Assembly (NCBI RefSeq): GCF_000429945.1
Contig: NZ_AUCV01000029.1
Span: forward strand, 1 to 64,000
From: Desulfogranum japonicum DSM 18378
GTDB lineage: Bacteria; Desulfobacterota; Desulfobulbia; Desulfobulbales; Desulfobulbaceae
Reading direction: 5' to 3'
Length of the DNA stretch: 64,000 nt
Below the pieces are notes generated by a model. That model was not told where the DNA came from. It worked only from the letters and a program-made list of their open reading frames with translations, and did not search any database. The translations under genes were made by a program, and so were the position numbers. Position 1 is the first letter of the stretch; every line of letters starts with the position of its first letter. Below, piece by piece: positions 32,458 to 63,818 of the stretch.

Positions 32458-34467
32458 ATGGCAAAAGTCGGCGTGTACGTATGTCATTGTGGTTCAAACA
32501 TTGCCGGCGTGATCGACGTAGAGGCGGTTCGTGATTTTGCAGCAACTCTCCCGGACGTCGTTATCGCACGAAAAGACCTGTTCATGTGTTCTGATTCAGG
32601 GCAGGAAATGGTTAAGCAGGATGTACGTGATGGATTGGTAGACAGGGTGGTAGTGGCGGCTTGTACACCGCGTACCCATGAACCGATCTTTCGGGCGGCA
32701 ATAGAGAAGGCAGGATTGAATAAGTATCTTTTTGAGATGGCCAACATTCGTGATCAGGCAAGTTGGGTGCATGGCCATGATCATGAGGGGGCGACTGAAA
32801 AGGCTAAAAAAGTGGTTGCCTCAGCTGTGGCGAAAGCCCGCTATCTGGAATCTTTGGAAGATAAATATGTCGACGTTACCGACGCAGCCCTGGTTATTGG
32901 TGGCGGTATCGGAGGAATCAGCGCAGCGCTTGAATTGGCCAATATGGGGCATAAGACATATCTGGTGGAAAAACAGCCATCCATTGGCGGGGTCATGGCT
33001 CAGCTGGATAAGACCTTTCCTACCAATGACTGTTCAGCCTGTATCCTGACCCCAATGATGGTTGAAGCCTATAATCATCCAAATATTGAGACCATGACCT
33101 ATTCAGAGGTGGATGATGTCTCCGGCTATATAGGGAATTTTACCGTCAAGGTACGACAGAAGCAGACCTATGTGGATTGGGCCAAGTGCACCGGTTGCGG
33201 CGACTGTGCAACCAAATGTCCTGCCAAAACTCCAGATGAATTTAATGCGGGTTTATCTGAAAGACGCGCTGCTTTCATAATGTTCCCCCAGGCTGTTCCC
33301 AAAAAAGCTGTCATTGATATGGCTCACTGTCTGAACTGTGCCGGAAGAGAAATAGGGACTATCCCCAAGGTCAATGCCAAGACGGGAAAACAGATTTTGG
33401 CCCCCTGTGAAAAGGTGTGTCCGGCTAATGCCATTGATCGGTCCATTGCCCATGATCCCAAGGGCGCGATTAAAGAAATAGAGGTGGGGTCGATTGTAGT
33501 GGCTACAGGGTATAAAGTGATGGAGAAAGAATGGTTTAAGGAGATGGCTCCCAGTTCTCCCAATGTGATCACAGCGCTTCAGTTGGAACGTTTGATCAGT
33601 GCCACCGGCCCTACAGAGGGCAAGCTGTTGCGGCCCTCTGATCATCAAAAACCAAAGACTCTTACCTTTGTTTCCTGCATGGGATCACGGGATAAGAAGT
33701 TCCATACCTACTGCTCCCGTTTTTGTTGCATGTACATGATTAAGCAGGCCCGACTGTTGAAAGAAAAATATCCGGATCTGGTTATTAACATGCACTTTAT
33801 TGATGTGCGTACGGCTGGCAAGGATTACGACGAGTATTATACCGGCGCACGCAATATGGGAATCAACTTTTTTAAAGGAAAAGTGGGCGGGCTTGAAATG
33901 CTTCCTGAGGATAAGCTCCGCGTGCTTGCCTATGACATGGAGTCTGCAACCAATATTGAATATGAGTCTGACCTTGTCATATTAGCTACAGCTGTCGAGC
34001 TTCCCGAAGATGCAACTTCCCTGGCTCAAAAGCTTGGTCTGCAATTCTGTGGTTCAAAATTCTTCCGTGAATTACATCCAAAATTAGGTCCAGTCGAAAC
34101 ATCAACCGAAGGCTTGTTCCTGGCTGGATGCTGTCAGGGGCCAAAGGATATTCCCGATACAGTTTCCCAGGCAAAAGGAGCAGCGGCAGCAGCAGCGGTT
34201 CCGTTGGCCCAGGGCAAGGTCAAGATCGAACCTATTATTTCAGAAGTGCGCACCGAGGTGTGCAGCGGCTGTGGCATCTGTGTTCCGCTTTGTCCATATA
34301 AGGCGATTTCCATGCGTGAGTTCGGTGGCGAGTTGCGGGCACATATTGAAATATCAGCATGTAAAGGATGCGGGGTGTGTACTTCTGCCTGTCCTTCGGC
34401 TGCTATCGTGCTTCATGGCTATGAAGAAGATCAGATTTTTGCACAGATCGCTGCATTGACAGCCTAG
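32458..34467 (+). CDS. hdrA: Heterodisulfide reductase-like subunit A (HdrA, flavin and FeS)
   Basis: AAGGAGG lies 5 nt before the ATG. 669 aa. Order: N-terminal domain with VCHCGSNIAG, FAD-binding Rossmann motif VIGGGIGG (148-153), the HdrA signature DCSACILTP (191-199, Cys in the place where some archaeal HdrA have Sec), an inserted 4Fe4S motif CTGCGDCATKCP (244-255), and a C-terminal pair of ferredoxin motifs CSGCGICVPLCP and CKGCGVCTSACP. In HdrABC-Mvh complexes this subunit bifurcates electrons from hydrogenase between ferredoxin and a disulfide. It heads an operon of six genes. Confidence 0.95.
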   Translation: MAKVGVYVCHCGSNIAGVIDVEAVRDFAATLPDVVIARKDLFMCSDSGQEMVKQDVRDGLVDRVVVAACTPRTHEPIFRAAIEKAGLNKYLFEMANIRDQASWVHGHDHEGATEKAKKVVASAVAKARYLESLEDKYVDVTDAALVIGGGIGGISAALELANMGHKTYLVEKQPSIGGVMAQLDKTFPTNDCSACILTPMMVEAYNHPNIETMTYSEVDDVSGYIGNFTVKVRQKQTYVDWAKCTGCGDCATKCPAKTPDEFNAGLSERRAAFIMFPQAVPKKAVIDMAHCLNCAGREIGTIPKVNAKTGKQILAPCEKVCPANAIDRSIAHDPKGAIKEIEVGSIVVATGYKVMEKEWFKEMAPSSPNVITALQLERLISATGPTEGKLLRPSDHQKPKTLTFVSCMGSRDKKFHTYCSRFCCMYMIKQARLLKEKYPDLVINMHFIDVRTAGKDYDEYYTGARNMGINFFKGKVGGLEMLPEDKLRVLAYDMESATNIEYESDLVILATAVELPEDATSLAQKLGLQFCGSKFFRELHPKLGPVETSTEGLFLAGCCQGPKDIPDTVSQAKGAAAAAAVPLAQGKVKIEPIISEVRTEVCSGCGICVPLCPYKAISMREFGGELRAHIEISACKGCGVCTSACPSAAIVLHGYEEDQIFAQIAALTA

Positions 34468-34478
34468 GGGGGGACTTT

Positions 34479-34982
34479 ATGAAAATCGAACAGAAGAAAA
34501 TCGATGAGGCTGTGCAGACCATTACGGGGTATGGCGGACACGGTATTCTCAACTGTGTACAGTGTGGTGCCTGTTCTGCTGTCTGTCCCGGTGTGAAAGC
34601 GGGCTTTTCGCTGCTGTGCAGAAATCTTATCCGGCATTTGCTTAATGGAGAGTTGGAAGAAATCATTGAAGATCCTTCATCCTGGGGCTGTCAGGCGTGC
34701 AACCGCTGTACTGAAATTTGTCCTCAGGATGTGAGGCCACAGGAGGTTGTTTTTGCCTTTCGGCGCTATCAAGCCAACGAGATGGCTTTTTCCACCTCTG
34801 CCGTAACCAGTCAGATGAACCTGTACGAAACCGGCCATGCCGTTTTCACCGATGCTCGGGAGTTGCGTAAGAAGGTCGGGCTGCCTGCAGAACCACCTAC
34901 GTCTGCATATAATGAAAAGGCGCAGCGGGAAATTCAGGCATTGATTAACAGCGGGCCCATGGGTGAGTTGGGCTTATTTTAA
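34479..34982 (+). CDS. hdrC: Heterodisulfide reductase-like subunit C (ferredoxin-like)
   Basis: 167 aa, 11 nt after hdrA, with GGGGGGA upstream. Two 4Fe4S motifs, CVQCGACSAVCP (about residues 24-35) and CQACNRCTEICP (about 71-82), transfer electrons from HdrA to HdrB. VRPQEVVFAFRRYQ after the second cluster is a family signature. Confidence 0.93.
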   Translation: MKIEQKKIDEAVQTITGYGGHGILNCVQCGACSAVCPGVKAGFSLLCRNLIRHLLNGELEEIIEDPSSWGCQACNRCTEICPQDVRPQEVVFAFRRYQANEMAFSTSAVTSQMNLYETGHAVFTDARELRKKVGLPAEPPTSAYNEKAQREIQALINSGPMGELGLF

Positions 34983-34997
34983 GGGAGGCAGTCATTC

Positions 34998-35915
34998 ATG
35001 GAAAAGATAGGATTATACCTGGGGTGCAATATCCCCATGAAAGCACCGGATATTGAGCAGTCGTTTCGCAACATACTGCCTGAATTCGGTTATCAGCCTG
35101 TAGATCTTGAGGGTGCTACCTGTTGTCCTGCCTGGGGTACTGCCCCTTCCTTTGATATGGATACCTGGTGTGCTGTTTCCAGCCGTAATATTACCATCGC
35201 TGAAGAAAAGGAGGTGGATGTCATTACTGGCTGCAACTCCTGTTTTGGTGTGCTTTCGGAGGCGAAACATTTTCTTGAAGACAAAGCCCGGCGTACTGCG
35301 GTCAATGCAAAGCTTGCAGAAATCGGCCGAGAATTTAAAGGAACTTCCGATATCTATCATATTGCCCATTTGTTGCATAACAAGGTCGGTGTAGACAGGA
35401 TTCGGGATAAGTTGAAATACAGTTTTAAAGGAATGAAAATAGCGGTGCAGACCGGCTGTCATACTCTCTGGCCAAGTGATGTGTATAAGGTGAAGGAAGA
35501 AAATCCCTATTACCCGACCATCCTTAAAGAGCTGTGCGAAGCCACGGGCGCTGACGTCCCCCATTATTCCCGCCTGGAAGCATGTTGCGGGATGGGCGGT
35601 ATGCGGTCCACAGATGTGGAAAAGTCACTGAAGCTTTTTGCTGAAAAGTTGTTCTCCATCAAGGAAGAGGTTGATCCGGATATTATTGTGACAACCTGCT
35701 CATCCTGTTTTCTGCAGTTTGATATGTCTCAGCCTATTTTGAAAGAACGCGGAGTCATAGACTTCGAACCAATCCCCACCTTTTATTATACTCAGATTCT
35801 GGCCTTAGCCATGGGATTTGATCCTGCGCAGGTTGCCGCGATCTCCCAGATTGACAGGAGTCAGATCATTGCCGATATGCAAAGTGAACGACGATTGGTC
35901 AAGGAGGTAGCCTAA
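34998..35915 (+). CDS. hdrB: Heterodisulfide reductase-like subunit B (CCG domains)
   Basis: 305 aa with two cysteine-rich CCG domains. The first has GATCCPAWG and CNSCFGVLSEA, the second has TGCHTLWP, LEACCGMGGMRS and CSSCFLQFD. These bind the two noncubane 4Fe4S clusters that cleave a disulfide in methanogen HdrB. Both sets of ligands look complete, so the subunit should be active. The physiological acceptor in a sulfur bacterium is unknown (not CoM-CoB). AGGGAGG precedes the ATG. Confidence 0.94.
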   Translation: MEKIGLYLGCNIPMKAPDIEQSFRNILPEFGYQPVDLEGATCCPAWGTAPSFDMDTWCAVSSRNITIAEEKEVDVITGCNSCFGVLSEAKHFLEDKARRTAVNAKLAEIGREFKGTSDIYHIAHLLHNKVGVDRIRDKLKYSFKGMKIAVQTGCHTLWPSDVYKVKEENPYYPTILKELCEATGADVPHYSRLEACCGMGGMRSTDVEKSLKLFAEKLFSIKEEVDPDIIVTTCSSCFLQFDMSQPILKERGVIDFEPIPTFYYTQILALAMGFDPAQVAAISQIDRSQIIADMQSERRLVKEVA

Positions 35916-35917
35916 CC

Positions 35918-36331
35918 ATGTCATTTAGTCCGAATATTGTTGGATTTGCCTGTCAGTGGTGCACCTATGCGGGTGCAGATTTAGCCGGAAACCTGCGAGC
36001 TAAATATCCTCCTACGGTGAAACTTATAAAAGTTCCCTGTTCCGGGAGGGTTGAGCCTGAACATGTCCTGGAAGCCTTTGCCAATGGTGCAGACGGTGTA
36101 TTGATTGGCGGCTGTCACTTTGGGGACTGTCATTATAAAACCGGTAACTATAAAACCAGCCGGCGGATCGCTATTTATGAGAAACTTCTTAAAGATAGCG
36201 GCTTTGAAGCTGATCGCCTTCGCTTGGAGTGGATATCCGGAGCTGAAGGATACCGTTTTGCTGAGGTGATTGAGGAGTTTACCAAACAGTTGCAGGAAAT
36301 GGGGCCCAGCCCAATGAATGGAGGGGTATGA
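35918..36331 (+). CDS. mvhD: Methyl-viologen-reducing hydrogenase delta subunit (MvhD)
   Basis: 137 aa, 2 nt after hdrB. FACQWCTYAGADLAG and GGCHFGDCHYKTGNYKTSRR are the MvhD signature, with Cys ligands for a 2Fe2S cluster. It links the hydrogenase small subunit to HdrA. Its stop codon overlaps the mvhG start (ATGA). Confidence 0.94.
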   Translation: MSFSPNIVGFACQWCTYAGADLAGNLRAKYPPTVKLIKVPCSGRVEPEHVLEAFANGADGVLIGGCHFGDCHYKTGNYKTSRRIAIYEKLLKDSGFEADRLRLEWISGAEGYRFAEVIEEFTKQLQEMGPSPMNGGV

Positions 36332-37341
36332 CGATGGCTGAAAAAGTAAAAACAGCATTTCTGCTGGCAGGAGGGTGTGCTGGTTGTGAAATGAGTGTCG
36401 TTGATCTGTCCGAGGCTCTTGTGGGTGCATTGGAGCATCTGGAAATCGTGTTTTGGGCACCTACCGTCGCTGATGTAAAGTATAAGGATCTCGAAGATAT
36501 GCCGGATAAATCCATTGATCTGGCCTTTGTCGACGGCATGATTCGTAACAGTGAAAATGAGCATACTGTAAAGGTGCTCCGGCAAAAATCCAAGGTTCTG
36601 GTTGCTTTTGGTGCCTGTGCATCATTGGGGGGCATTGCCGCTCTTGGTGATTTACACACCAAGGAAGAGCTTTTCAAACAGGCCTATAAGGATTCTTTTT
36701 CCACTGATAATCCGGAGGGAATCTATCCCACCCCAGAGTATCTCCTGGATGGCAAATACAACCTGACTATCCCAACGTTTCTTGATAGGTGTTCCACCAT
36801 TGATCAGATCGTTGATGTGGAATATTACGTAGGGGGCTGCCCGCCTCACCCGTCTTTTGTAGGAAAGCTTATTGAAGCTATTTTAGCTGGAAATCTGCCA
36901 GCTCCCGGATCCTGGCTGACCAGTGGTAAGGCTGTCTGTGAAAGCTGCTCCCGCAACCCTGCTAAAGATGGTGTTGAAAGGTTGCCCGTGGGTGACATCA
37001 AGCGCACCATAGATGGTACTCCGGATTCAGATAAGTGTCTTCTGCAGCAGGGCTATATGTGTTTTGGTCCCGTTACCCAGGGTGATTGCGGCGGCTCGTG
37101 CCTTAATGTGAATATCCCCTGTCGAGGCTGCGGTGGCCCCATACCAGGCGTAAAGGATTTTGGTGCCCGCTGTGTCAGTATGATAGCTTCCAGTCTGGCA
37201 GATGATGCGACAGCGCAGAAGTTCATCGATCAATATAATGATATGGCAAAGATGTTTTATCGCTATAGTCATACTGCAAACAGACTGAATCACAAAATTG
37301 CCGGGATGAAAGAACAAAAGGTGTCTGAGGCGTGTAAGTGA
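36328..37341 (+). CDS. mvhG: [NiFe] hydrogenase small subunit (MvhG, group 3c)
   Basis: 337 aa, overlapping mvhD by 4 nt; a second ATG two codons in is also possible. LAGGCAGCEMSVVD (Cys17, Cys20) and FGACASLGG give the proximal cluster; GCPPHP and the Cys-rich region CESCSRNPAKD, CGGSCLNVNIPCRGCGGP bind the other clusters. No signal peptide, so the enzyme is cytoplasmic. It is the only small subunit in the window and may serve both large subunits. Confidence 0.92.
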   Translation: MTMAEKVKTAFLLAGGCAGCEMSVVDLSEALVGALEHLEIVFWAPTVADVKYKDLEDMPDKSIDLAFVDGMIRNSENEHTVKVLRQKSKVLVAFGACASLGGIAALGDLHTKEELFKQAYKDSFSTDNPEGIYPTPEYLLDGKYNLTIPTFLDRCSTIDQIVDVEYYVGGCPPHPSFVGKLIEAILAGNLPAPGSWLTSGKAVCESCSRNPAKDGVERLPVGDIKRTIDGTPDSDKCLLQQGYMCFGPVTQGDCGGSCLNVNIPCRGCGGPIPGVKDFGARCVSMIASSLADDATAQKFIDQYNDMAKMFYRYSHTANRLNHKIAGMKEQKVSEACK

Positions 37342-37357
37342 AAAGGTAAGCTGGAGA

Positions 37358-37422
37358 CCTTGAATAATTGTTATTAGCAAAATAAGCGTTATGCGTATAT
37401 TGAACAATCATAGTATTCAAGG
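37358..37422 (+). promoter_or_regulatory. Inverted repeat in the mvhG-mvhA spacer
   Basis: CCTTGAATA (37358-37366) and TATTCAAGG (37414-37422) are perfect complements, with ATTGTT and AACAAT as a second inner pair. The only sizeable gap in the operon (161 nt) holds this stem. It is not followed by a T run, so attenuation or RNA processing is more likely than simple termination. Confidence 0.4.
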
Positions 37423-37502
37423 CTCCTATTTATCTGCAGAGGCATGTTATACCCGCCTGGCCATGGGCCAGTGCAGAGAAAGAGACTGCAAGGAGCAGCA
37501 AC

Positions 37503-38969
37503 ATGAAGAAGATCGAAATTAATCCCATTACTCGTCTCGAAGGTCACGGGAAGATAGCTATTTTTCTTGATGACCAGGGCAATGTAGACGATGCTTTTTT
37601 CCAGACCGTGGAATTTAGAGGGTTTGAAAAATTCCTTCAAGGGATGCCTATGGAAGAAGTGCCACGCACTGTTTCGACAGTGTGCGGTGTGTGCCGTGGT
37701 GTTCATTATATGGCTTCGACCAAAGCTGCTGACGGTGTTTTCGGGGTCACGCCTCCATCAGCAGGTCGTAAATTGCGTGAGCTGTTTTTCAATGCCCATT
37801 ATGTTGAAGATCATGCTGTTATCCTCTATGCCCTCGGCTTTCCCGATTTTGTGGTAGGCCCGGAAGCCAACCCTGCAGAGAGGAACGTGGTCGGCCTGAT
37901 TAACGCTGTGGGGGCGGAGGTCGGCAAGGAAGTCCTGCGAAAACGGGGGCTTGCCGTGAAGATTTTTGAATTGCTCGGCGGAAAACCCAACCATGCGGTG
38001 GCAGCCCTGCCCGGTGGGTGGTCCAAAAGCCTCAATGAAGAAGAGCGTAAACAGATTGAAGAGTGGTCCAAGGAGTTGGTTGAGCTTGGCGAACTTACGC
38101 TGAAAATATTTGACGATGTGGTCCTGCAAAATGATGACTACATGAAGCTGGTAACCGGTGATGTTTTTAAAGTGGAAGTCGGTTACATGGGCTCCGTCAA
38201 TGATAAGGATCAGATAACCTACTATGACGGCACTCAGAAGATCATTGACAGTGCCGGTAAGCCGGTGGGCAGTTTTACTGGAAAGGAATATCTCGATTTT
38301 ATTTCCGAACGTGTGCAGCCATGGACCTATTTGAAATTTCCCTACCAGAAAAAAATCGGTGACTGGCAGGGAATAGTTGAGGGGCCGGGTACCAATATTT
38401 ACAGTGTCGGGCCATTGGCCAGGTTGAATATTGTCAAAGAGATGGATACACCCAAAGCCCAGGCTCATTTTGAAAAGTTCCACGCAACTTTCGGGGCCAA
38501 GCCTGTGCACAACATTCTTGCCTACCATTGGGCACGCGCCATAGAGTTGCTCAACGCTGCTGAGAAGTGCCTGGAGCTGTCCCGTGATCCGGAAATTACC
38601 AGTAAAGACATCTGGAATAAACCCACTTCCTGCCCTGGTGAAGGTGTTGGCGTCATCGAGGCACCGCGCGGAACTCTTATTCATCATTACTGTACTGATG
38701 ATAAGGGGATCGTGACAGATGCCAACCTTATTGTGGCAACCACCCACAATAATGCGCCCATTAATCTTGCTGTAAAGAAGGCAGCCAAGCATTTTATCAA
38801 AGGTGGTGAAGTGCCTGAAAGCATGTTGAACTATGTGGAGATGGCATTCAGACCGTATGATTTATGTCTTGCCTGTGCTACCCATACGGTAACAGGTGGG
38901 CAAACTCCCATGGAAATCGAGATTTATGACAGCAAAGGCGGGTTGTACAAATCAATGAAAAATTTCTGA
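37503..38969 (+). CDS. mvhA: [NiFe] hydrogenase large subunit (MvhA, cysteine form)
   Basis: 488 aa with CAAGGAG upstream. The N-terminal L1 motif is TVCGVCRGVH (Cys61, Cys64); the usual Arg two residues before the first Cys is Thr here. The C-terminal L2 motif is DLCLACATH (Cys455, Cys458, His461), followed by a 27-residue tail that a maturation protease should remove after His461. All four nickel-ligand cysteines are present. Together with mvhG it forms the H2-oxidising unit of the Hdr complex. A selenocysteine-containing paralogue is at 58702. Confidence 0.93.
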   Translation: MKKIEINPITRLEGHGKIAIFLDDQGNVDDAFFQTVEFRGFEKFLQGMPMEEVPRTVSTVCGVCRGVHYMASTKAADGVFGVTPPSAGRKLRELFFNAHYVEDHAVILYALGFPDFVVGPEANPAERNVVGLINAVGAEVGKEVLRKRGLAVKIFELLGGKPNHAVAALPGGWSKSLNEEERKQIEEWSKELVELGELTLKIFDDVVLQNDDYMKLVTGDVFKVEVGYMGSVNDKDQITYYDGTQKIIDSAGKPVGSFTGKEYLDFISERVQPWTYLKFPYQKKIGDWQGIVEGPGTNIYSVGPLARLNIVKEMDTPKAQAHFEKFHATFGAKPVHNILAYHWARAIELLNAAEKCLELSRDPEITSKDIWNKPTSCPGEGVGVIEAPRGTLIHHYCTDDKGIVTDANLIVATTHNNAPINLAVKKAAKHFIKGGEVPESMLNYVEMAFRPYDLCLACATHTVTGGQTPMEIEIYDSKGGLYKSMKNF

Positions 38970-39106
38970 TATGTATTTTTCATCCGGGAAATGGGGGATG
39001 AACTGGATTTCGTAAATATTGATACGAAAAATACGGGATAGATGACCCATAGTCAGGAGGCCGGGCGTTTCATGCACGGCCTCTCCTCTTGATTTGGAGT
39101 GCTTGT

Positions 39107-39589
39107 ATGAGCGAAAAATGTGTTGTGGTAGGTATCGGTAATCCGTATCTGCAGGATGATCGCGCTGGCGTGGTAGTTGTGGAGAAGCTTGAAGAACAAG
39201 GGGTTCCCTGTAATACGGAGATAGTCTATACCGTGGGTTTCGAAGTTATGGACAAGGTAAAAGGCTATGATCGGGCGATCATTGTGGATGCCTGTATGCT
39301 GGGCAATGAACCTGGATCCATTCTGGAAGTAACCATGGACGATATTTTTACCACCAGTTCATTGGTTAATTCCCATGCAATCACTTTGGGAACAACTCTG
39401 AAAACAGGGTATCTTTGTTTTCAGGAAGAAATGCCAAAAGAAATTCAGATTGTTTTGATTGAAGTCAAGGATATCAAGGAGTTTACTCAGGTGATGTCAC
39501 CGGAAGTGGACAAGGCGGTCGAGGTAGTGGTGGATCGTATCAAGTCATTGGTTTGTCATTGGCACACTGCAATTCCCAGTGGTTCCTGA
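39107..39589 (+). CDS. Hydrogenase maturation protease (for MvhA)
   Basis: I start at ATG 39107 (TTGGAGTG upstream); an in-frame ATG is not found nearer. VVGIGNPYLQDDRAGVVVVEKL and IIVDACMLGNEPGSI carry the Gly-x-Gly-Asn and two acidic Ni-sensing residues of the HycI/HybD family. The endopeptidase clips the C-terminal tail of the large subunit after nickel insertion. It follows mvhA by 137 nt. A hairpin (39601-39638) lies just after the stop. Confidence 0.88.
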   Translation: MSEKCVVVGIGNPYLQDDRAGVVVVEKLEEQGVPCNTEIVYTVGFEVMDKVKGYDRAIIVDACMLGNEPGSILEVTMDDIFTTSSLVNSHAITLGTTLKTGYLCFQEEMPKEIQIVLIEVKDIKEFTQVMSPEVDKAVEVVVDRIKSLVCHWHTAIPSGS

Positions 39590-56818: not shown

Positions 56819-57385
56819 TCAGTTTATCTGGATTTTTTTTGTCTCACTTTGAGGAAGGCTTTTTCTCGGCATCGTAATGGTCAAAATACCATTGTTAAAG
56901 GTCGCTTTGATGTTGTCTTGGTCAGCGTCGTCCGGCAGTGAAAGTACCCTTTGGAAAGAGCCGTATGAACGCTCGACACGATAATAATTTTTGTCCTTCT
57001 CTTCTTTTTCCTGCTTCTTTTCCCCGCAAATGGTCATGGTATTATTGGTAACTTCCACCCGGACATCCTTTTCGGCAACACCAGGTACTTCAACGGTGAT
57101 GGAATACTCTTTTTCTGTGGCACCGATATCTACTTGGGGCTTTAAGAAGCCTGTGTTTTCCATTGTGGGGAATGCATGTGTTCTAAAAGGGGACATGCCG
57201 AATCCACGGAAAGCTTCTTCAAAAAGTCTGTCCATTTCGTGATGAACATGTGCTAAGGGGTGAGATCCACCCTTGTTCGAGTAAGTGGGGGAAATGTTGG
57301 ACCGCTGCACTATGGGGATAGTGGCATTTGGTTCCTCTTCTTCTTTTTTAAACCAGTTCCATGGCGCAAATTTTTTGATATCCAT
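56819..57385 (-). CDS. Small heat shock protein, Hsp20 family
   Basis: ATG 57385 with AAAGGAGG upstream (188 aa). The alpha-crystallin domain runs from about residue 85: FLKPQVDIGATEKEYSITVEVPGVAEKDVRVEV, ending with FNNGILTITMPRK. The C-terminal I-x-I is QIN-like. It holds unfolded proteins under stress. The N-terminal arm contains the hydrophobic, dimerisation-promoting segment. Confidence 0.93.
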   Translation of the reverse strand: MDIKKFAPWNWFKKEEEEPNATIPIVQRSNISPTYSNKGGSHPLAHVHHEMDRLFEEAFRGFGMSPFRTHAFPTMENTGFLKPQVDIGATEKEYSITVEVPGVAEKDVRVEVTNNTMTICGEKKQEKEEKDKNYYRVERSYGSFQRVLSLPDDADQDNIKATFNNGILTITMPRKSLPQSETKKIQIN

Positions 57386-57976
57386 GCTTGACCTCCTTTT
57401 CATATTGTATTTTGCAATACATCAAAAATGGAAATGCATCCGATTTCGCGTAATTTGCGTATCGTGCTGTTATTGAAAGTAAAATTTTTTTATATCTGCT
57501 GCGTGAACAGTTGTGTTTTTTCATTAACAGCTGGGCTTGGTTCATACCTTCGCACTTCAAAAAATAGCCATCAATTGTTGTAAGTCAACGGGATGGGTTG
57601 TTTTCTGTTCTTCAATACGTTGCACTACTTTTTGCTGTAATTTTGCAAGAGGAATGAGGGGCGGTGCTGCTTGTTGGCAATATGGTAAAGAGTCTGGATT
57701 TGCCACCGGCGTACCCAGGGCCGCGGAAAAAAGAACTTAGTGAGAGTTCTCCGGACCCCTTAGAAGACATGATTGTTCTCAAGGGCTGTTTTTTTTCTCA
57801 TTTTCCGGTATATCACATGGAGAAGATCCTTGTATTGAGATAGATATGTACGGAGAACATCTTCCGTAAGTCATCACCTTACACCATATTTGCATGTTCG
57901 TGATAGCCCGTGTGGACAGCTTACAAAAACGATTATAAAAAAAAAGTGTTTGCAGACAAAACAGTGCGAGATGTTG
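57386..57976. other. Gene-poor stretch before the second hydrogenase locus
   Basis: On the minus strand a frame with no ATG runs 57557-57736 and reads NPDSLPYCQQAAPPLIPLAK and EEQKTTHPVDLQQ before its stop, which looks like the tail of a lost gene; I cannot identify it. Nothing else seen. Confidence 0.4.
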
Positions 57977-58495
57977 ATGAAATGTTTTACCTCTGAGACT
58001 TTTTCCGGCAAAGGTATTGCTCCGGATGTGGTCATTTTTGGCTGTGGCAATATCTATCTTGGTGATGATGGATTTGGACCGGCGGTAGCCAATGCCTTGA
58101 ATAGTGACTATAATCTTCCTGAAAAAGTGGAGGCCATAGACGCTGGGACATCCATACGGGATACGTTGTTTGATTATTTGCTGGCAGAAGAGCTGCGTCC
58201 CAAACATATCATTATTGTTGACTCAATCGACAGTGAGAATCATATTCCGGGAGAAGTTTTCTGCATTGATCCTGGCGGTATTTCCGCCAGCAAGGTTCAT
58301 GATTTTTCCCTGCATCAGTTTCCAACCGTCAATATGTTGCAGGAACTGCAAGAGTTTACGGAAATGAAGGTGTCCATAATCGTCGCTCAAATCAGTAAAC
58401 CTGCCAGAGAAGTTTCCAAAGGACTTTCACCAGAGATTAAACAGGCAATACCTCTAGCATGCCAGGTGATAATGGACATGGTGCTTGCTGCGTGA
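57977..58495 (+). CDS. Hydrogenase maturation protease (for the Sec large subunit)
   Basis: I use ATG 57977; upstream in-frame starts extend to 57890. VVIFGCGNIYLGDDGFGPAVANAL is the Gly-x-Gly-Asn region with the acidic Ni-sensing residues, and HIIIVDSIDSENHIPGEVF the second acid motif. It resembles the FrhD/HycI proteases of cytoplasmic group 3 hydrogenases. The large subunit gene starts 206 nt downstream on the same strand, so it should trim the 27-residue tail of that protein. Confidence 0.88.
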   Translation: MKCFTSETFSGKGIAPDVVIFGCGNIYLGDDGFGPAVANALNSDYNLPEKVEAIDAGTSIRDTLFDYLLAEELRPKHIIIVDSIDSENHIPGEVFCIDPGGISASKVHDFSLHQFPTVNMLQELQEFTEMKVSIIVAQISKPAREVSKGLSPEIKQAIPLACQVIMDMVLAA

Positions 58496-58701
58496 AAATA
58501 AGGTGTTACAGTATTACGTTGCAGTTATCAGCTGGTTAACGCCGAGGTATACCGGACATGAACAGGCTACCAACGACTCTGATAATTCTCTACGGCTGCA
58601 TGTCTGGTGCCTCGCGTCTACTGTAAGAAATGAGAAAGCAGGATGAAAGAGTATTGTATGCGTAACGAGACCAAGATATTTGCTTTCAATGAAGAGGTGA
58701 T

Positions 58702-60159
58702 ATGAGCATGGGAAAGGTAATCACGATTCAACCCGTCACCAGAATCGAGGGACATGCCTCCATTGCCATTGAACTTGATGACAACGGCAATGTCAGTGAT
58801 GCCAAGATGCATCTGACATCGTTGCGTGGGTTTGAAAAATTTATCCAGGGAAGACCTGCAGAAGAAGTCCCTCGCATTGTCAACCGGATTTGCGGTATCT
58901 GTCCATGGATGCACCACCTGGCCTCCAACAAAGCTGTTGATGGCTGTTTTGGCGTAGTTCCTTCTCCCGCCGGACACAAGCTGCGTGAACTTTGTCAGGC
59001 CATGGCGCATATCAATGATAAGATTCTGCATTTCTTTTTTCTTGCAGCCCCGGATTTTATGATCGGTCCGGACAGCGATTATTCTGTACGCAACGTTATG
59101 GGTATCGTCAAGCAGGCCCCTGAGCTGGCGAGTCAGGTTGTGCGCATGCGTCAGCTTGGCCAGATGATGATCGAAAAGTTTGCCGGTAAGGCTATTCATC
59201 CCATTGCAGCTGTTACCGGAGGGTTTGCAAAGCCCATACTTGAAAGTGAGCGCCAGGAAATGCTTCAGGCATGCCGGACTCTGCTTGATTTTTCCTGCTT
59301 TGCCCTGGATTTTGCCAGAAAAAATGTCTTCAGGCAGTTCCAAGACGTGATCCAGCAGGTGGGAGTTATTCATACCGGGTTTCTGGGTACTGTGGATGAT
59401 ACAGGTGGGCTTAATATTTATGACGGCAAACTTCGCCTGATGAAAGGCTCTGGCGAGTATGTCGAATTTGCGGCTGACAGATATGCTGACTATATTGGCG
59501 AACATGTCGAACCGTGGTCTTATGGGAAGATGCCTTATGCCAAGGTTTGGGATGAAGGGTTTTCCATGGATCTGGATCAGCCAAAGGGTATTTACCGCTC
59601 CAATACCCTTGCCCGCCTGAATGTGTGCGACCATATCGGCACCCCGAAGGCGCAGGCTGCGCTGGAGGAATTTCGCAGTGCCTTTGGCCGTTATCCACAA
59701 TATACATTACTCTACCATTATGCCCGTCTGATTGAATTGATCTACGTCTGCGAACGTTCGCTGGAACTGCTCAGTGATGCATCCATTACCGACACCAATG
59801 TCCGCAGCAAAGTGGAACCGAAAGCTGGCAGGGGGGTGGGCATGGTTGAGGCACCTCGGGGCACCTTGATCCATGACTACGAGACCGATGATAACGGTTG
59901 TATCGTCAACGCCAACATGATCGTCGGCACCACCCATAATGTGGCGCCCATGAACATGAGCGTCAAACAGGCTGCAACCTCGCTCATAAAAGACGGTGTG
60001 TATGATCAGGGACTCCTGAATAAGGTGGAAATGGCGGTGCGCGCCTATGACCCGTGAATTTCGTGCGCAACACACCACCTGGATGGTGGTGCACCTTTAT
60101 CTGTTACCATTTTTAACGCCAGGGGAGAAGAATTAGCAAACCTGTCAAACATTGAGTAA
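58702..60159 (+). CDS. [NiFeSe] hydrogenase large subunit, MvhA/VhuA-type, Sec452 encoded by TGA
   Basis: GAGGTGAT precedes ATG 58702. The frame meets TGA at 60055-60057 after 451 codons, right after RAYDP, where the family needs the first Ni-binding Cys of L2. Beyond the TGA the same frame reads ISCATH, completing DPUISCATH, and goes on to a TAA at 60157-60159: 485 residues, matching the 488-aa cysteine paralogue. The tail after His458 has 27 residues, as expected for the protease-cleaved extension. L1 is RICGICPWMH (Cys64, Cys67). A hairpin 15 nt after the TGA fits a bacterial SECIS. Termination at the TGA would remove two of four Ni ligands. No small subunit gene adjoins, so it probably pairs with MvhG. 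Confidence 0.92.
60063..60094 (+). promoter_or_regulatory. Candidate bacterial SECIS hairpin of the hydrogenase gene
   Basis: CACCACC (60073-60079), loop TGGAT, GGTGGTG (60085-60091): a perfect 7-bp stem, extendable by GTGC/GCAC. The loop starts 22 nt after the TGA and holds GG, as SelB-binding loops do. Confidence 0.75.
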
Positions 60160-60339
60160 GAAATATGTGGGCTGCACAGGCAGCCCATTCTTATGAAGTG
60201 CAGGGGGCCTTTCTGCCCATCATTCAAAATTTCATCAAAGCTGTTTCCACTACAGCTGTCATACTGGGCGCTGTTTTACAGTAATATCCATAAAAAATAT
60301 GCCCCTCTTTCAATACGTTACTCCTTCTTTTCGAGGAGC

Positions 60340-60500
60340 GTAACTGCTCGGAGTGTCCATGATCTTTCCGCGATCAGGCTGGCTTGCCTATGGAGCAATA
60401 CGCTGCACCAAGCCTGATTGCGAAAGCCTCAGGCACCCTGTAAGCAGCTACAAATACCGCAGAGTTGCCAGGTTTAGTCACTAGCCCTATGAGTAGTTAT
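60340..60500. repeat. Repeat family A, copy 6
   Basis: GTAACTGCTCGG to GAGTAGTTAT with CTTTCCGCGATCAGGCTGG; 161 bp, just upstream of the DUF134 promoter. Confidence 0.85.
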
Positions 60501-60531
60501 CTGGAGACAAGGATTTTTTGTGTGATCATTT

Positions 60532-60597
60532 TGCTCATTTGAGCATTTTGTGATTGACGAGGGGTGTGGATGGTCTTATTATGCTCATATGATCATA
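60532..60597 (+). promoter_or_regulatory. DUF134 promoter with palindromic operators
   Basis: TTGACG (60554-60559), 17 nt, TATTAT (60577-60582) is a good sigma-70 promoter. TGCTCA-TT-TGAGCA (60532-60545) lies just before it and TATGCTCATATGATCATA (60580-60597) overlaps the -10 box; the shared half-site TGCTCAT suggests autoregulation by the DUF134 protein. Confidence 0.55.
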
Positions 60598-60616
60598 AAA
60601 AATGTGGGAAGAGCAT

Positions 60617-60958
60617 ATGCCAAGACCAACAAAAGTACGATTAGTAGCTGCGGATCCAACCACCAAGTCGTTTGGGCCTCGTGATATGAACGCCACTGGC
60701 AGTGTCTGTATTACGGTGGAGGAATTCGAGGCTATTCGCTTAAGCGATTATAAAGGGATGGATCAGGAAAGCGCTGCCGCAATGATGGGAGTTTCGCGGC
60801 ATACCTATGGAAGATTACTTGCCAGGGCCCGTTCAACGATAGCGCGGGCGCTGGTGAATGGGGAAGAACTCCGCATTGAAGGCGGTAACTTTCAATTTTG
60901 CGGCCATGGAAGAAAGCGTTGTCGCCGTGGCCAGGGTGGCGGTGGACGCTGTCGATGA
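60617..60958 (+). CDS. DUF134 DNA-binding protein
   Basis: ATG 60617 with GGGAAGAG upstream; 113 aa. PRPTKVRLVAADPTTKSFGPRD and ITVEEFEAIRLSDYKGMDQESAAAMMGVSRHTYGRLLARAR are diagnostic of DUF134, a helix-turn-helix family. The C-terminus is Arg/Gly-rich with a CGHG and RC. Family members sit next to dinitrogenase-cofactor-like NifX/B and DUF5320 genes. The flanking glycine-rich genes match that habit. Confidence 0.9.
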   Translation: MPRPTKVRLVAADPTTKSFGPRDMNATGSVCITVEEFEAIRLSDYKGMDQESAAAMMGVSRHTYGRLLARARSTIARALVNGEELRIEGGNFQFCGHGRKRCRRGQGGGGRCR

Positions 60959-61015
60959 ACACCGCAAACGAAACAGTATGATTTTGCTGCGGCAAAATAT
61001 TGAGGAGATGTGGTT

Positions 61016-61201
61016 ATGAGACAGAGAAAGAGTATGCGTGATAACGGGCAGGGGCAACAGCAATCAGATCGGGCAATGGAAACAGGCGGTGGGTGTGGAC
61101 AAATGGGATCTGGAAATCAATGCGGTCGTTCTCGAGGTATGTGTGGTGGGCGTCAACAGGGAAACGGAAAGGGACAAGGTTCAAGAGGCAACGGTCGGTA
61201 A
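61016..61201 (+). CDS. Gly/Gln/Arg-rich small protein
   Basis: ATG 61016 with GAGGAGATG upstream; 61 aa. It is almost entirely Gly, Gln, Arg, Met and Cys (CGQMGSGNQCGRSRGMCGG), a composition common in genes downstream of DUF134. No structure predicted. Third party to the DUF134-DUF5320 run. Confidence 0.6.
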   Translation: MRQRKSMRDNGQGQQQSDRAMETGGGCGQMGSGNQCGRSRGMCGGRQQGNGKGQGSRGNGR

Positions 61202-61354
61202 CATCCGCATGTATGGACAGACACTGACCGGGAATCTGTTAACTGTTTGAATTCTACGGAATGCCAGCAATATGTGCAAAAAGAAAGAATTGAAATAGCT
61301 ATGTGACAGGAAAAACCTGTCATGAGATACAACTCATAGAAGTGAGGTGATAGT

Positions 61355-61678
61355 ATGCCAGGATTTGATGGATCAGGACCTGTGGGACAGGGATCAATGA
61401 CCGGAAGAGCAATGGGACGATGCAACCCTGCAGCCGCAGAGAGTAGTGCTGGTGCGTGGTCCGGTTATGGCCGTGGTATGGCTTGCCGCCGCGGAAGAGG
61501 AGGGCGTGGAGGTTTTGCCGGGCGTGGTATGGGCATGGGACAAGGGTGTTTCCAGGGTAATACCCAAGGATTTCAGGTGGATGAGAAAGAAAGCCTGAGA
61601 GCCCAGGCCAGTCAGTTGCAGGAATCGCTGCAGGCCATACAAAAACGGCTTGATGACCTTGAGCAATCGGATAAATAA
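61355..61678 (+). CDS. DUF5320 family protein
   Basis: AGTGAGGTGATAGT precedes ATG 61355; 107 aa. MPGFDGSGPVGQGSMTGRAMGRC is the DUF5320 start; Gly/Arg-rich middle; and a C-terminal coiled coil (ESLRAQASQLQESLQAIQKRLDDLEQ). Usually near dinitrogenase-cofactor biosynthesis proteins; function unknown. Confidence 0.85.
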   Translation: MPGFDGSGPVGQGSMTGRAMGRCNPAAAESSAGAWSGYGRGMACRRGRGGRGGFAGRGMGMGQGCFQGNTQGFQVDEKESLRAQASQLQESLQAIQKRLDDLEQSDK

Positions 61679-62029: not shown

Positions 62030-62229
62030 TTAAAGTGTGATACACTCATGTTTTTGCAAATATTGATAAAGGGTTTGCCGACTAATCCCAAAATCACGAG
62101 CGATTTCTGCTTTTTTATCACCAGCCATAATCCGTGACTTCACGACATCTATGTCGGCGTCGGAAAGTGCTCTCTTTCGACCATGATATGCACCGCGTTG
62201 TTTGGCTAACGCAATTCCTTCCCTTTGGC
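62030..62229 (-). pseudogene. Serine resolvase C-terminal remnant (helix-turn-helix)
   Basis: In the frame ending at TTA 62030-62032 the minus strand reads QREGIALAKQRGAYHGRKRA, then a helix-turn-helix with KAEIARDFGISRQTLYQYL. This is the end of Tn3-type resolvases and invertases (Q-R-E-G-I-x-x-A-x-x-x-G-x-Y-x-G-R-K). The catalytic domain is missing. It is out of frame with the transposase that runs into it, so the end of that reading frame past about 62229 is spurious read-through. Confidence 0.8.
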
Positions 62230-63818
62230 AATTCCAACGGTTGATTTGATCTCATCTGGATGTTTCTTTCTTCGCTTTGCATTCGCTTGACCCATTGACT
62301 ATACGCCCAGTTATAAAAATGAACCCAATCACCGTTAAGCTCAATACACCTCAGGTGAAGTAACGCTTCAGCTCGTTCAGGTTTCCAACGCATCCCAGAG
62401 CAATCCAACCGTTCGCCGATCACATTACGAACCGCTCCTTCCATCATCCCGCTTCCAATCGGCAAATCTTCCTCGATATATTTCTGGTAGTTCATCATTC
62501 CCACTCGAGTTTGCATGTAAGTAATAGCTTTAACGACGGTTTCTCTGACCGCTTTATCTCGATTGGCCTTGGGTGACAGGGTGCGTCTTACTTCCTTCAA
62601 TAACTCAAGAAGATTTTCCACTTCGCCGTCGTATAGCTTGGCACGCAAGGTATCGACCAATTCCTCCCGGTTCTTTCGGTTCATTTTATCGTCGGGATAA
62701 AAGGCTCTGCCAAATTTCCAGAGATACTCTTCAACATGACGAATATCCAAACAAAATGTAGCATTCGGAAAGAGCTTTGCCAGGCCATCCCTGAGACAAG
62801 GTTCACCATCAACTACTATGTGAACATGTTTGTGTGTATCTGGTGAAAACCCCCGTTTTGTTGCTTGCCTGCGAGTCCATTCAAGCATTACTTTTCGGGA
62901 AGCAAAAGATCCCCAAACCTTTTTATTGATCGGGCCGTGCAAACGTCCGTCTGTGCCTCTTTTGAGGCTGTACATTACAGCCAGTGTGGCGCTTCGACCA
63001 TTCTTACTGAAATCGTTTGCCTGACGACGAACACGTTTGGTCCGCTTACGACATGCCTTACCCCTGTGGCGACGACAGCAGGAAACTTTTGGTAGCTTTC
63101 GGCTCCTTTTTCGCTTTGCAAGTTCTGTGTCAGTCAGAGTAGCTATTGCCTTTCCATCAACTTCGATGACCAACACATCTCCTTCATCCTCCGCAAAATT
63201 AGCAGTCTCCATGTAACATGATGCCTCTTTGCCAATCCCCAGCACCATATCCTGGATACTTTCCTTGCCAGGTGACCAGCCATAAAAAGACCGCAGCAGA
63301 AGAACACACGTCCCGAAGCTTACGCGAGTCGCTAATTTTGTGGCCAACTTCATGACAAGCGGACTAAAGCCATCCTTGCTTAGACCAATAGCCGCGTCAA
63401 ACGGGAAAAAACCGGCAGAATCGTTTTTATGGATAAAATATCGGCGCCAGTATCTGACTCTGCCAAAGATGGTATAAATTGTTCGACCGGCAGGTTGTTT
63501 TTGCGCATAATAACGTTCTCCTTCCTGCCAGTTTGAATAGCAAAAACGTTCATGACGCGAAACAAGGTACAGTTGGCAATAGAGTCCTCCGAGCAAGAAA
63601 ATTTTATCCTGCAGTTTTTGCTCAAAGGAAAAAAACAGGCTATCTTTATCCCCGGATAGGCAAAATTCGAGAATGGATTCAAAGCATTCCCGGAGCTGCT
63701 TGTTGACGTCATCAATTGCCAGCGGTTGTTCAGCCTTTGGCTTGTGGGCTTGCCGGTTATGTTTTTTTCGTTGAGCCTTTTTGTGGTTCTGCAGCAAGGT
63801 AACTTGTCCAACCATCAT
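62118..63818 (-). mobile_element. ISKra4-like transposase
   Basis: AAAGGAG precedes ATG 63818. Conserved blocks are VIEVDGKAIATLTD, VHIVVDGEPCLRDGLAKLFPNATFCLDIRHVEEYLWKFGRAFY (DDE-like core), and a near-C-terminal PIGSGMMEGAVRNVIGERLDCSGMRW that is diagnostic of ISKra4-type transposases. About 566 codons, but the last 35 or so lie over the resolvase remnant, so the native end is not preserved. I did not find clear terminal inverted repeats. Confidence 0.8.

Follow-up and report, generated by a model that had tools for sequence, protein, structure and literature searches.

An in-frame TGA predicted to encode selenocysteine in a heterodisulfide reductase-linked hydrogenase of Desulfogranum japonicum, and the break-up of its operon

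In the window analyzed here, a 64,000-nucleotide stretch from the genome of the sulfate reducer Desulfogranum japonicum, a gene for a hydrogenase large subunit appears to stop short of half of its nickel ligands, raising the question of whether the TGA triplet concerned is a true stop or a codon for selenocysteine (Sec) and, in the latter case, to which enzyme the product belongs. The gene, referred to as mvhA(Sec), occupies positions 58702–60159 of the plus strand and starts with an ATG at 58702, or may start with the second ATG at 58708, because the matches of its homologues mostly begin at residue 3. A mechanical list of open reading frames ends it at 60057 as a product of 451 amino acids, directly behind RAYDP; in translation, the frame remains open past this TGA (codon 452, 60055–60057) up to a TAA at 60157–60159. 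Reading the TGA as Sec yields a protein of 485 residues with the C-terminus RAYDPUISCATHHLDGGAPLSVTIFNARGEELANLSNIE, which contains the L2 motif DPUISCATH, as compared to 488 residues for the cysteine (Cys) paralogue encoded at 37503–38969, to which it is 42% identical. The L1 motif C64-G-I-C67 (58891–58902) represents the N-terminal pair of nickel ligands, and the segment from C455 to H458 (60064–60075) comprises the second L2 ligand and the histidine in front of a 27-residue C-terminal tail (60076–60156), the predicted substrate of a maturation protease. In an alignment of 17 rows, C64, G65, C67, C455, T457 and H458 as well as position 452 are invariant. We assign the ligand roles of C64, C67 and the L2 residues by analogy with [NiFe] hydrogenases in general, and the tail is presumably removed after H458, as in other members of the family. 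Sec452 would then bind nickel together with Cys455, Cys64 and Cys67, two of which four ligands are missing from the 451-residue product. A preliminary description of the sequence had already pointed to the apparent stop after 451 codons, the I-S-C-A-T-H segment and tail behind it, the L2 motif in a 485-residue protein and the loss of two ligands upon conventional gene calling, all of which we find in the sequence. Standard annotation thus cuts mvhA(Sec) short, such that the H2 metabolism of the genus would be misread.

The TGA is shared by the orthologues. Among the matches listed, all 86 orthologous matches that span codon 452 at an identity of at least 60% contain exactly one internal TGA; they derive from 85 of the 257 genomes of the order, and in each of the 38 fetched as loci the TGA lies at the aligned codon 452. 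Also among the matches listed, three more with an identity of more than 70% are fragments that end before this codon, and the remaining ones (identity of 46% or less, E-value of 1e-60 or better) are free of stops. The fetched loci and named genomes together provided 107 distinct rows at the aligned codon, 85 with TGA and 22 with TGC or TGT (obtained from 138 loci after merging identical matches, with L169, L181, L183 and L184 falling short of the codon). Of 580 related stretches from a pattern scan, the best 80 were considered. In a tree of 89 rows, for which 19 close relatives were manually removed from the 107 and one paralogue from the window was added, the Sec rows, including MvhA(Sec), form a single group (SH-aLRT 96) with a single change between Sec and Cys; the tree was built by a quick method, and its distant Cys rows have long branches. 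Two distant large-subunit homologues (L047 and L048, 32% and 30% identity) also show one internal TGA each, which in L047 directly follows DPCISCSVH and may be a true stop.

Bacterial Sec codons depend on a SECIS hairpin, and the preliminary description had noted a perfect 7-bp hairpin with a GG loop that begins 15 nt after the TGA. This structure is indeed present at 60073–60091 (CACCACC-TGGAT-GGTGGTG), with seven pairs and no mismatch, GG within a loop of 5 nt and a gap of 15 nt, so that it covers nucleotides 16–34 behind the UGA. With its UGGAU loop of 5 nt, its 7-bp stem, a spacing of 22 nt and a calculated energy of −11.6 kcal/mol for the isolated hairpin, it falls within the limits for bacterial SECIS elements given in passages of PMC13188914, namely a loop of 3–9 nt with a G in its first two positions, a stem of 4–16 bp, 16–37 nt from the UGA to the loop and −7.5 kcal/mol or lower. 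Taken alone, the hairpin is weak evidence for a SECIS element, because a comparable one follows about 1% of the TGA triplets in the window (24 of 2528, both strands and any frame) and because the region as a whole folds with unremarkable energy: RNAfold favours a different register for the segment 60055–60110 (z = −0.80), and 41 of 200 shuffled sequences fold equally well. An Rfam scan of 58000–61000 returned two matches far below their gathering scores, neither of them a SECIS element, and SECIS_1, being the model of the eukaryotic element, is uninformative here, with no match in the D. japonicum genome or in the control genomes.

It is the comparison between homologues that decides. Counting the TGA as nucleotides 1–3, the core of the stem consists of the pairs 21-35, 22-34, 23-33, 24-32 and 25-31, and across 82 distinct Sec sequences 407 of the 410 cells are paired, the exceptions being two A-G and one G-A combination. 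By comparison, 2000 shuffles, which ignore relatedness, gave 390 paired cells on average and 396 at most, with none at 407. Three of these five pairs vary in a compensatory manner, with at least 7, 4 and 4 changes on the tree: pair 21-35 is CG in 70 sequences, TA in 10 and TG in 2, pair 22-34 is CG in 78 and TA in 2, with the A-G mismatch in the other 2, and pair 23-33 is GC in 75, AT in 6 and GT in 1, whereas pair 24-32 only shows the single G-A mismatch. The window carries the AT form of pair 23-33, whose minimum of four changes fits three separate switches between AT and GC (in the group of the window, in L032 and in L125) and one to GT. All three compensations coincide with amino-acid changes, from Arg to His (CGC-GGC to CAC-GGT), from Gly to Asp (CAC with GGN to CAT with GAT or GAC) and from Arg to Cys together with Gly to Ser or Arg (CGC with GGN to TGC with AGT or AGG). 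The two outer pairs of the 7-bp stem are not general, as they form in only 21 and 56 of the 82 sequences. When these two are included, 484 of 574 cells are paired in the Sec rows, compared to 43 of 140 in 20 rows of Cys homologues (two of the 22 Cys rows had too little downstream sequence to be counted), and sliding the stem by one to three positions leaves 26–72% paired, with the maximum at −3 due to the GGT GGT repeat. On comparative grounds, we thus assign the hairpin at 60073–60091 as the SECIS element, a structure that is absent from the Cys homologues.

The codons behind the TGA also appear to be under purifying selection. Relative to the orthologue of 'D. marinum' (genome G002 of the same genus, operon locus L080), dN/dS is 0.034 before the TGA and 0.135 in the 33 codons after it. 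The underlying dN values are 0.062 and 0.077, and dS drops from 1.84, a value near saturation, to 0.57, the latter based on 33 codons only, which fits a constraint at both the RNA and the protein level. These data bear on the ways in which the TGA could be explained without Sec. Since 85 further orthologous matches carry it, a misread base is rejected as its source. TGA is the true stop of the Cys paralogue and of the protease gene upstream of mvhA(Sec), so the triplet is not reassigned genome-wide, and its normal use as a stop elsewhere in the window would agree with a real stop at 60055 and the production of a 451-residue protein devoid of the C-terminal ligands. However, 85 distinct rows share the frame, the motif and the SECIS element that follow the TGA, and the truncated product would be missing two of the four nickel ligands, making us regard this explanation as extremely improbable. 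It is likewise very improbable that mvhA(Sec) is a decaying orphan that has retained its TGA by chance after the loss of its operon. The protease gene is its sole remaining neighbour from that operon, and the middle operon genes have left no detectable trace at 57000–61500, as decay would predict, but the dN/dS ratios on both sides of the TGA, the intact frame into the tail and the perfect SECIS stem all argue against it. By sequence comparison, UGA 60055 is a conserved sense codon followed by a covarying SECIS element, and the premature-looking stop is almost certainly read through as selenocysteine at the metal site.

Decoding of this kind also calls for dedicated machinery, and the preliminary description had held that its reading would fail in a genome without selB or selC. 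The host genome (5.8 Mb in 124 contigs, rated 100% complete) contains both, along with selA. A tRNA-Sec gene lies on contig C53 (2701–2794; 75 bits, cut-off 47) and has the anticodon TCA according to ARAGORN, whereas contig C6 encodes SelB (144652–146559; 360 bits, cut-off 242), including the SelB winged-helix domains, and SelA (672–2036; 612 bits, cut-off 268). Because the models for tRNA-Sec, SelB and SelA also match in 14, 14 and 4 of 14 control genomes, respectively, only matches above the cut-off were counted; such matches occur in 5, 2 and 1 of the controls, as expected for a trait that is not rare. By analogy with the known bacterial pathway, SelB and the Sec-tRNA would bind the hairpin and Sec would be inserted at position 452.

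As to the class of the enzyme, the preliminary description had called for a search of the read-through product against hydrogenase families. Residues 7–476 of the 485, almost the whole chain, align to the solved structure of an Mvh/Vhu-type large subunit (9sw2_F). The nearest solved chains (9sfi, 9sw2 and 5odc) are named F420-reducing alpha subunit, F420-non-reducing subunit A and methyl-viologen reducing subunit A. The best NCBIfam family is VhuA, with 473 bits against a cut-off of 800, and the C-terminal part matches VhuU (36 bits, cut-off 70), a model of 45 positions. All nine matching NCBIfam families stay below their own cut-offs, which marks MvhA(Sec) as a relative of VhuA rather than a VhuA equivalog. 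VhuU is a separate short chain. Periplasmic HysA carries its Sec nickel ligand in a DPUxxC motif and thus has Sec as a nickel ligand in common with MvhA(Sec); an identity with HysA itself was rejected, since the score is 158 bits where the HysA model requires 780. By its sequence relationships, the enzyme is hence of the heterodisulfide reductase (Hdr)-linked MvhA/VhuA type and not the HysA usually meant by '[NiFeSe] hydrogenase'. Taken as a whole, the locus very probably encodes the catalytic MvhA of an Hdr-linked [NiFeSe] hydrogenase, with UGA 60055 as its Sec codon. Electron bifurcation has been proposed as the role of this class in passages of PMC5109826 and PMC2702500.

In close relatives, the gene is the last of a cluster in which a protease gene is followed by genes for a GlpC-like protein, a double HdrA, MvhD, MvhG and MvhA. 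In D. marinum, four genes of this operon, those for GlpC, HdrA, MvhD and MvhA, contain a TGA. The window retains only the two ends, with mvhA(Sec) standing 206 nt from a plus-strand ORF for a HycI/FrhD-type hydrogenase maturation protease (57890–58495, domain from about 58028), which comes first in the Sec operon of close relatives and would cleave MvhA(Sec) after His458. The glpC-hdrA-mvhD-mvhG-mvhA context is absent, and a search of 57000–61500 for remnants of glpC, hdrA, mvhD and mvhG gave none at the DNA level and only protein matches with E-values near 1 or worse. A gene of the UPF0236 family, whose members are often transposase-like, is located at 62118–63818, 2 kb from mvhA(Sec), and could be related to the rearrangement.

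The missing partners have counterparts elsewhere in the genome. A search with the window's MvhG revealed three MvhG-type proteins in the whole genome, one of which (C53:13161–14174) is 63% identical to the MvhG of the D. marinum operon, as compared to 31% and 29% for the others, the 31% referring to the window's own MvhG. Its gene stands alone beside one for a Crp-type regulator (L188:12411–14174), on the same contig as the tRNA-Sec gene. In a tree of 49 chosen rows, this protein sits on a long branch and joins the MvhG of a further Desulfogranum genome, G006 (100/99). Its derivation from the D. marinum operon by relocation is not supported, since a clade of it and the D. marinum MvhG alone is rejected (p-AU 0.006, with the caveat of long branches). 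In the 89-row tree, by contrast, the window's MvhA groups with D. marinum and the MvhA of G006 with the Desulfobulbus type; the locus of G006 reads protease-mvhG-mvhA(Sec) and lacks glpC, hdrA and mvhD.

The HdrA closest to that of the D. marinum operon is encoded on contig C3, shows 59% identity and has no TGA. It is adjacent to GlpC and MvhD, with Cys at all three Sec positions, and this MvhD is 64% identical to that of the D. marinum operon, the next one being at 47%; none of the genome's six matches to the MvhD family contains a stop. Behind the module come hypF and hypD. All four genomes of the genus that were inspected for this arrangement have it, and in the four stretches of 12–20 kb retrieved around it, neither mvhG nor mvhA accompanies the module. 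Two further genomes of the genus also have a close HdrA without a TGA, and one rated 68% complete has no close HdrA. In three loci, two from Desulfobulbus (L147, L177) and one from the same family (L087), a similar Cys module has mvhG, mvhA(Sec) and then hypF behind it. Because these Desulfobulbus-type loci have the pair between the module and hypF, gene order indicates that mvhG-mvhA is missing from exactly this place in the module cluster of Desulfogranum. The genome has nevertheless not lost every Sec-containing HdrA, an idea that proved wrong: contig C1 encodes a fused HdrA-MvhD (L193:6984–9623, minus strand), likely another selenoprotein of the host, whose frame includes a TGA in MDCSIUILGPK and whose MvhD part has Cys. 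Its HdrA is 43% identical to that of the D. marinum operon.

With the operon of the genus broken up, gene distribution suggests, more weakly than the comparisons above, that MvhA(Sec) may pair with the MvhG from C53 and that electrons from H2 may pass to the all-Cys GlpC-HdrA-MvhD module on C3. We tentatively propose, as a joint reading that we consider possible rather than probable, that a mosaic selenohydrogenase has formed after the break-up of an all-Sec operon, in which a Sec-containing MvhA is combined with a separately kept MvhG and a Cys-only GlpC-HdrA-MvhD module that has lost its own hydrogenase genes from the hyp cluster. Sec would have persisted longest at the nickel site because it is not cheaply replaceable there, whereas the Sec residues of the iron-sulfur and flavin partners would be replaceable. 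The clustering of the same Cys module with a Sec-containing MvhA in the three Desulfobulbus-type loci speaks for this choice of partners; the discordant grouping of the C53 MvhG (with G006) and of MvhA (with D. marinum) speaks against it, as does the existence of an alternative candidate acceptor, the C1 fusion with its TGA at the HdrA Sec position. Indeed, MvhA(Sec) could instead serve as an alternative large subunit of another Hdr module, an unlikely but serious contender. One such module is the Cys-type complex of the window, which lies about 20 kb upstream and is complete (hdrA-hdrC-hdrB-mvhD-mvhG-mvhA(Cys)-protease, 32458–39589), and into which MvhA(Sec) might be exchanged when selenium is available, like vhu and vhc of Methanococcus voltae; a replacement of this kind is raised for D. 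autotrophicum in a passage of PMC2702500. The other is the C1 HdrA-MvhD, which retains Sec at the HdrA position and whose approximate level of identity is also seen for HdrA matches with one TGA in G002, G003 and G006. However, the window's MvhG is far less similar to the D. marinum MvhG than the C53 protein, the two large subunits of the window differ at more than half of their positions, and the C1 HdrA is more distant from the operon HdrA than its C3 counterpart.

The distribution of Sec across loci is one-sided. Sec is found in MvhA at 66 of 88 loci, 54 of which have at least one readable partner, and at 14 of these 54 it is combined with at least one Cys partner; the converse, a Cys-containing MvhA with a Sec partner, occurs at none of the 13 Cys loci with a readable partner. 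The 88 loci remained from 99 (L080–L098 and L108–L187) after removal of those whose MvhA codon was unreadable or whose score and identity equalled those of another locus, and 12 Sec and 9 Cys loci among them had no readable partner; because they were picked by likeness to the Sec-containing MvhA, the proportions are no unbiased survey. An archaeal locus (L184) with Sec in HdrA and MvhD falls outside the count, as its match to MvhA stops short of the codon. Among the matches listed, a double HdrA without a TGA lies within about 5 kb of a Sec-containing MvhA in 18 genomes, 13 from one genus (code g7) and 5 from one family (code f12). Judged from these distributions, Sec appears to be kept longest at the nickel site, with MvhA the last to lose it. 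Within the order, as many as three of the four Sec positions of the predicted electron-bifurcating complex are Cys while the nickel ligand is still Sec, and this natural series allows tests of which Sec positions are catalytically necessary.

Sec in this subunit family of bacteria has been published before, as seen in passages of PMC1794560 and PMC13188914 and, for the complex, PMC2702500. According to the relevant passage of Zhang et al. (2006, PMC1794560), Syntrophobacter fumaroxidans and Desulfotalea psychrophila have a Sec-containing FrhA/MvhA in a glpC-hdrA-frhD-frhG-frhA operon. The subunit family and the Sec in the large subunit are the same as here, and the cluster of the close relatives has an identical gene order after the protease gene, but in the window's genome this operon is broken up, with Cys forms as the closest HdrA and MvhD in the whole genome and the closest GlpC in the stretches examined. 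Passages of PMC2702500 present MvhA2DG of Desulfobacterium autotrophicum HRM2 as a cytoplasmic hydrogenase that contains selenocysteine, naming no subunit for it, and that is encoded in a cluster with a Sec-containing HdrA1; its genes lie together, and with hysAB. The methanococcal VhuA/VhuU pair, with its UxxC motif (passage of PMC13188914), shares the catalytic position and the Hdr-linked enzyme class; it is archaeal, and SECIS elements of archaea are described in the 3' untranslated region, whereas MvhA(Sec) is a single chain with an in-frame bacterial element. Neither a broken-up operon nor a nested loss of Sec is described in the titles, abstract openings and passages of the open-licence literature searched, and the main text of PMC11247825, which deals with Desulfogranum among others, has no word starting with 'seleno'. 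MvhA(Sec) itself thus joins a known enzyme type, and the unusual part is the arrangement of the genome.

The Cys paralogue at 37503–38969 shows a peculiarity of its own. It contains RPYDLCLACATH, in which Leu replaces the Pro that is customary in the DPC nickel motif. The resulting DLC is common to two of its relatives (L196 and L041, 92% and 83% identity), and nine more distant homologues have DPC.
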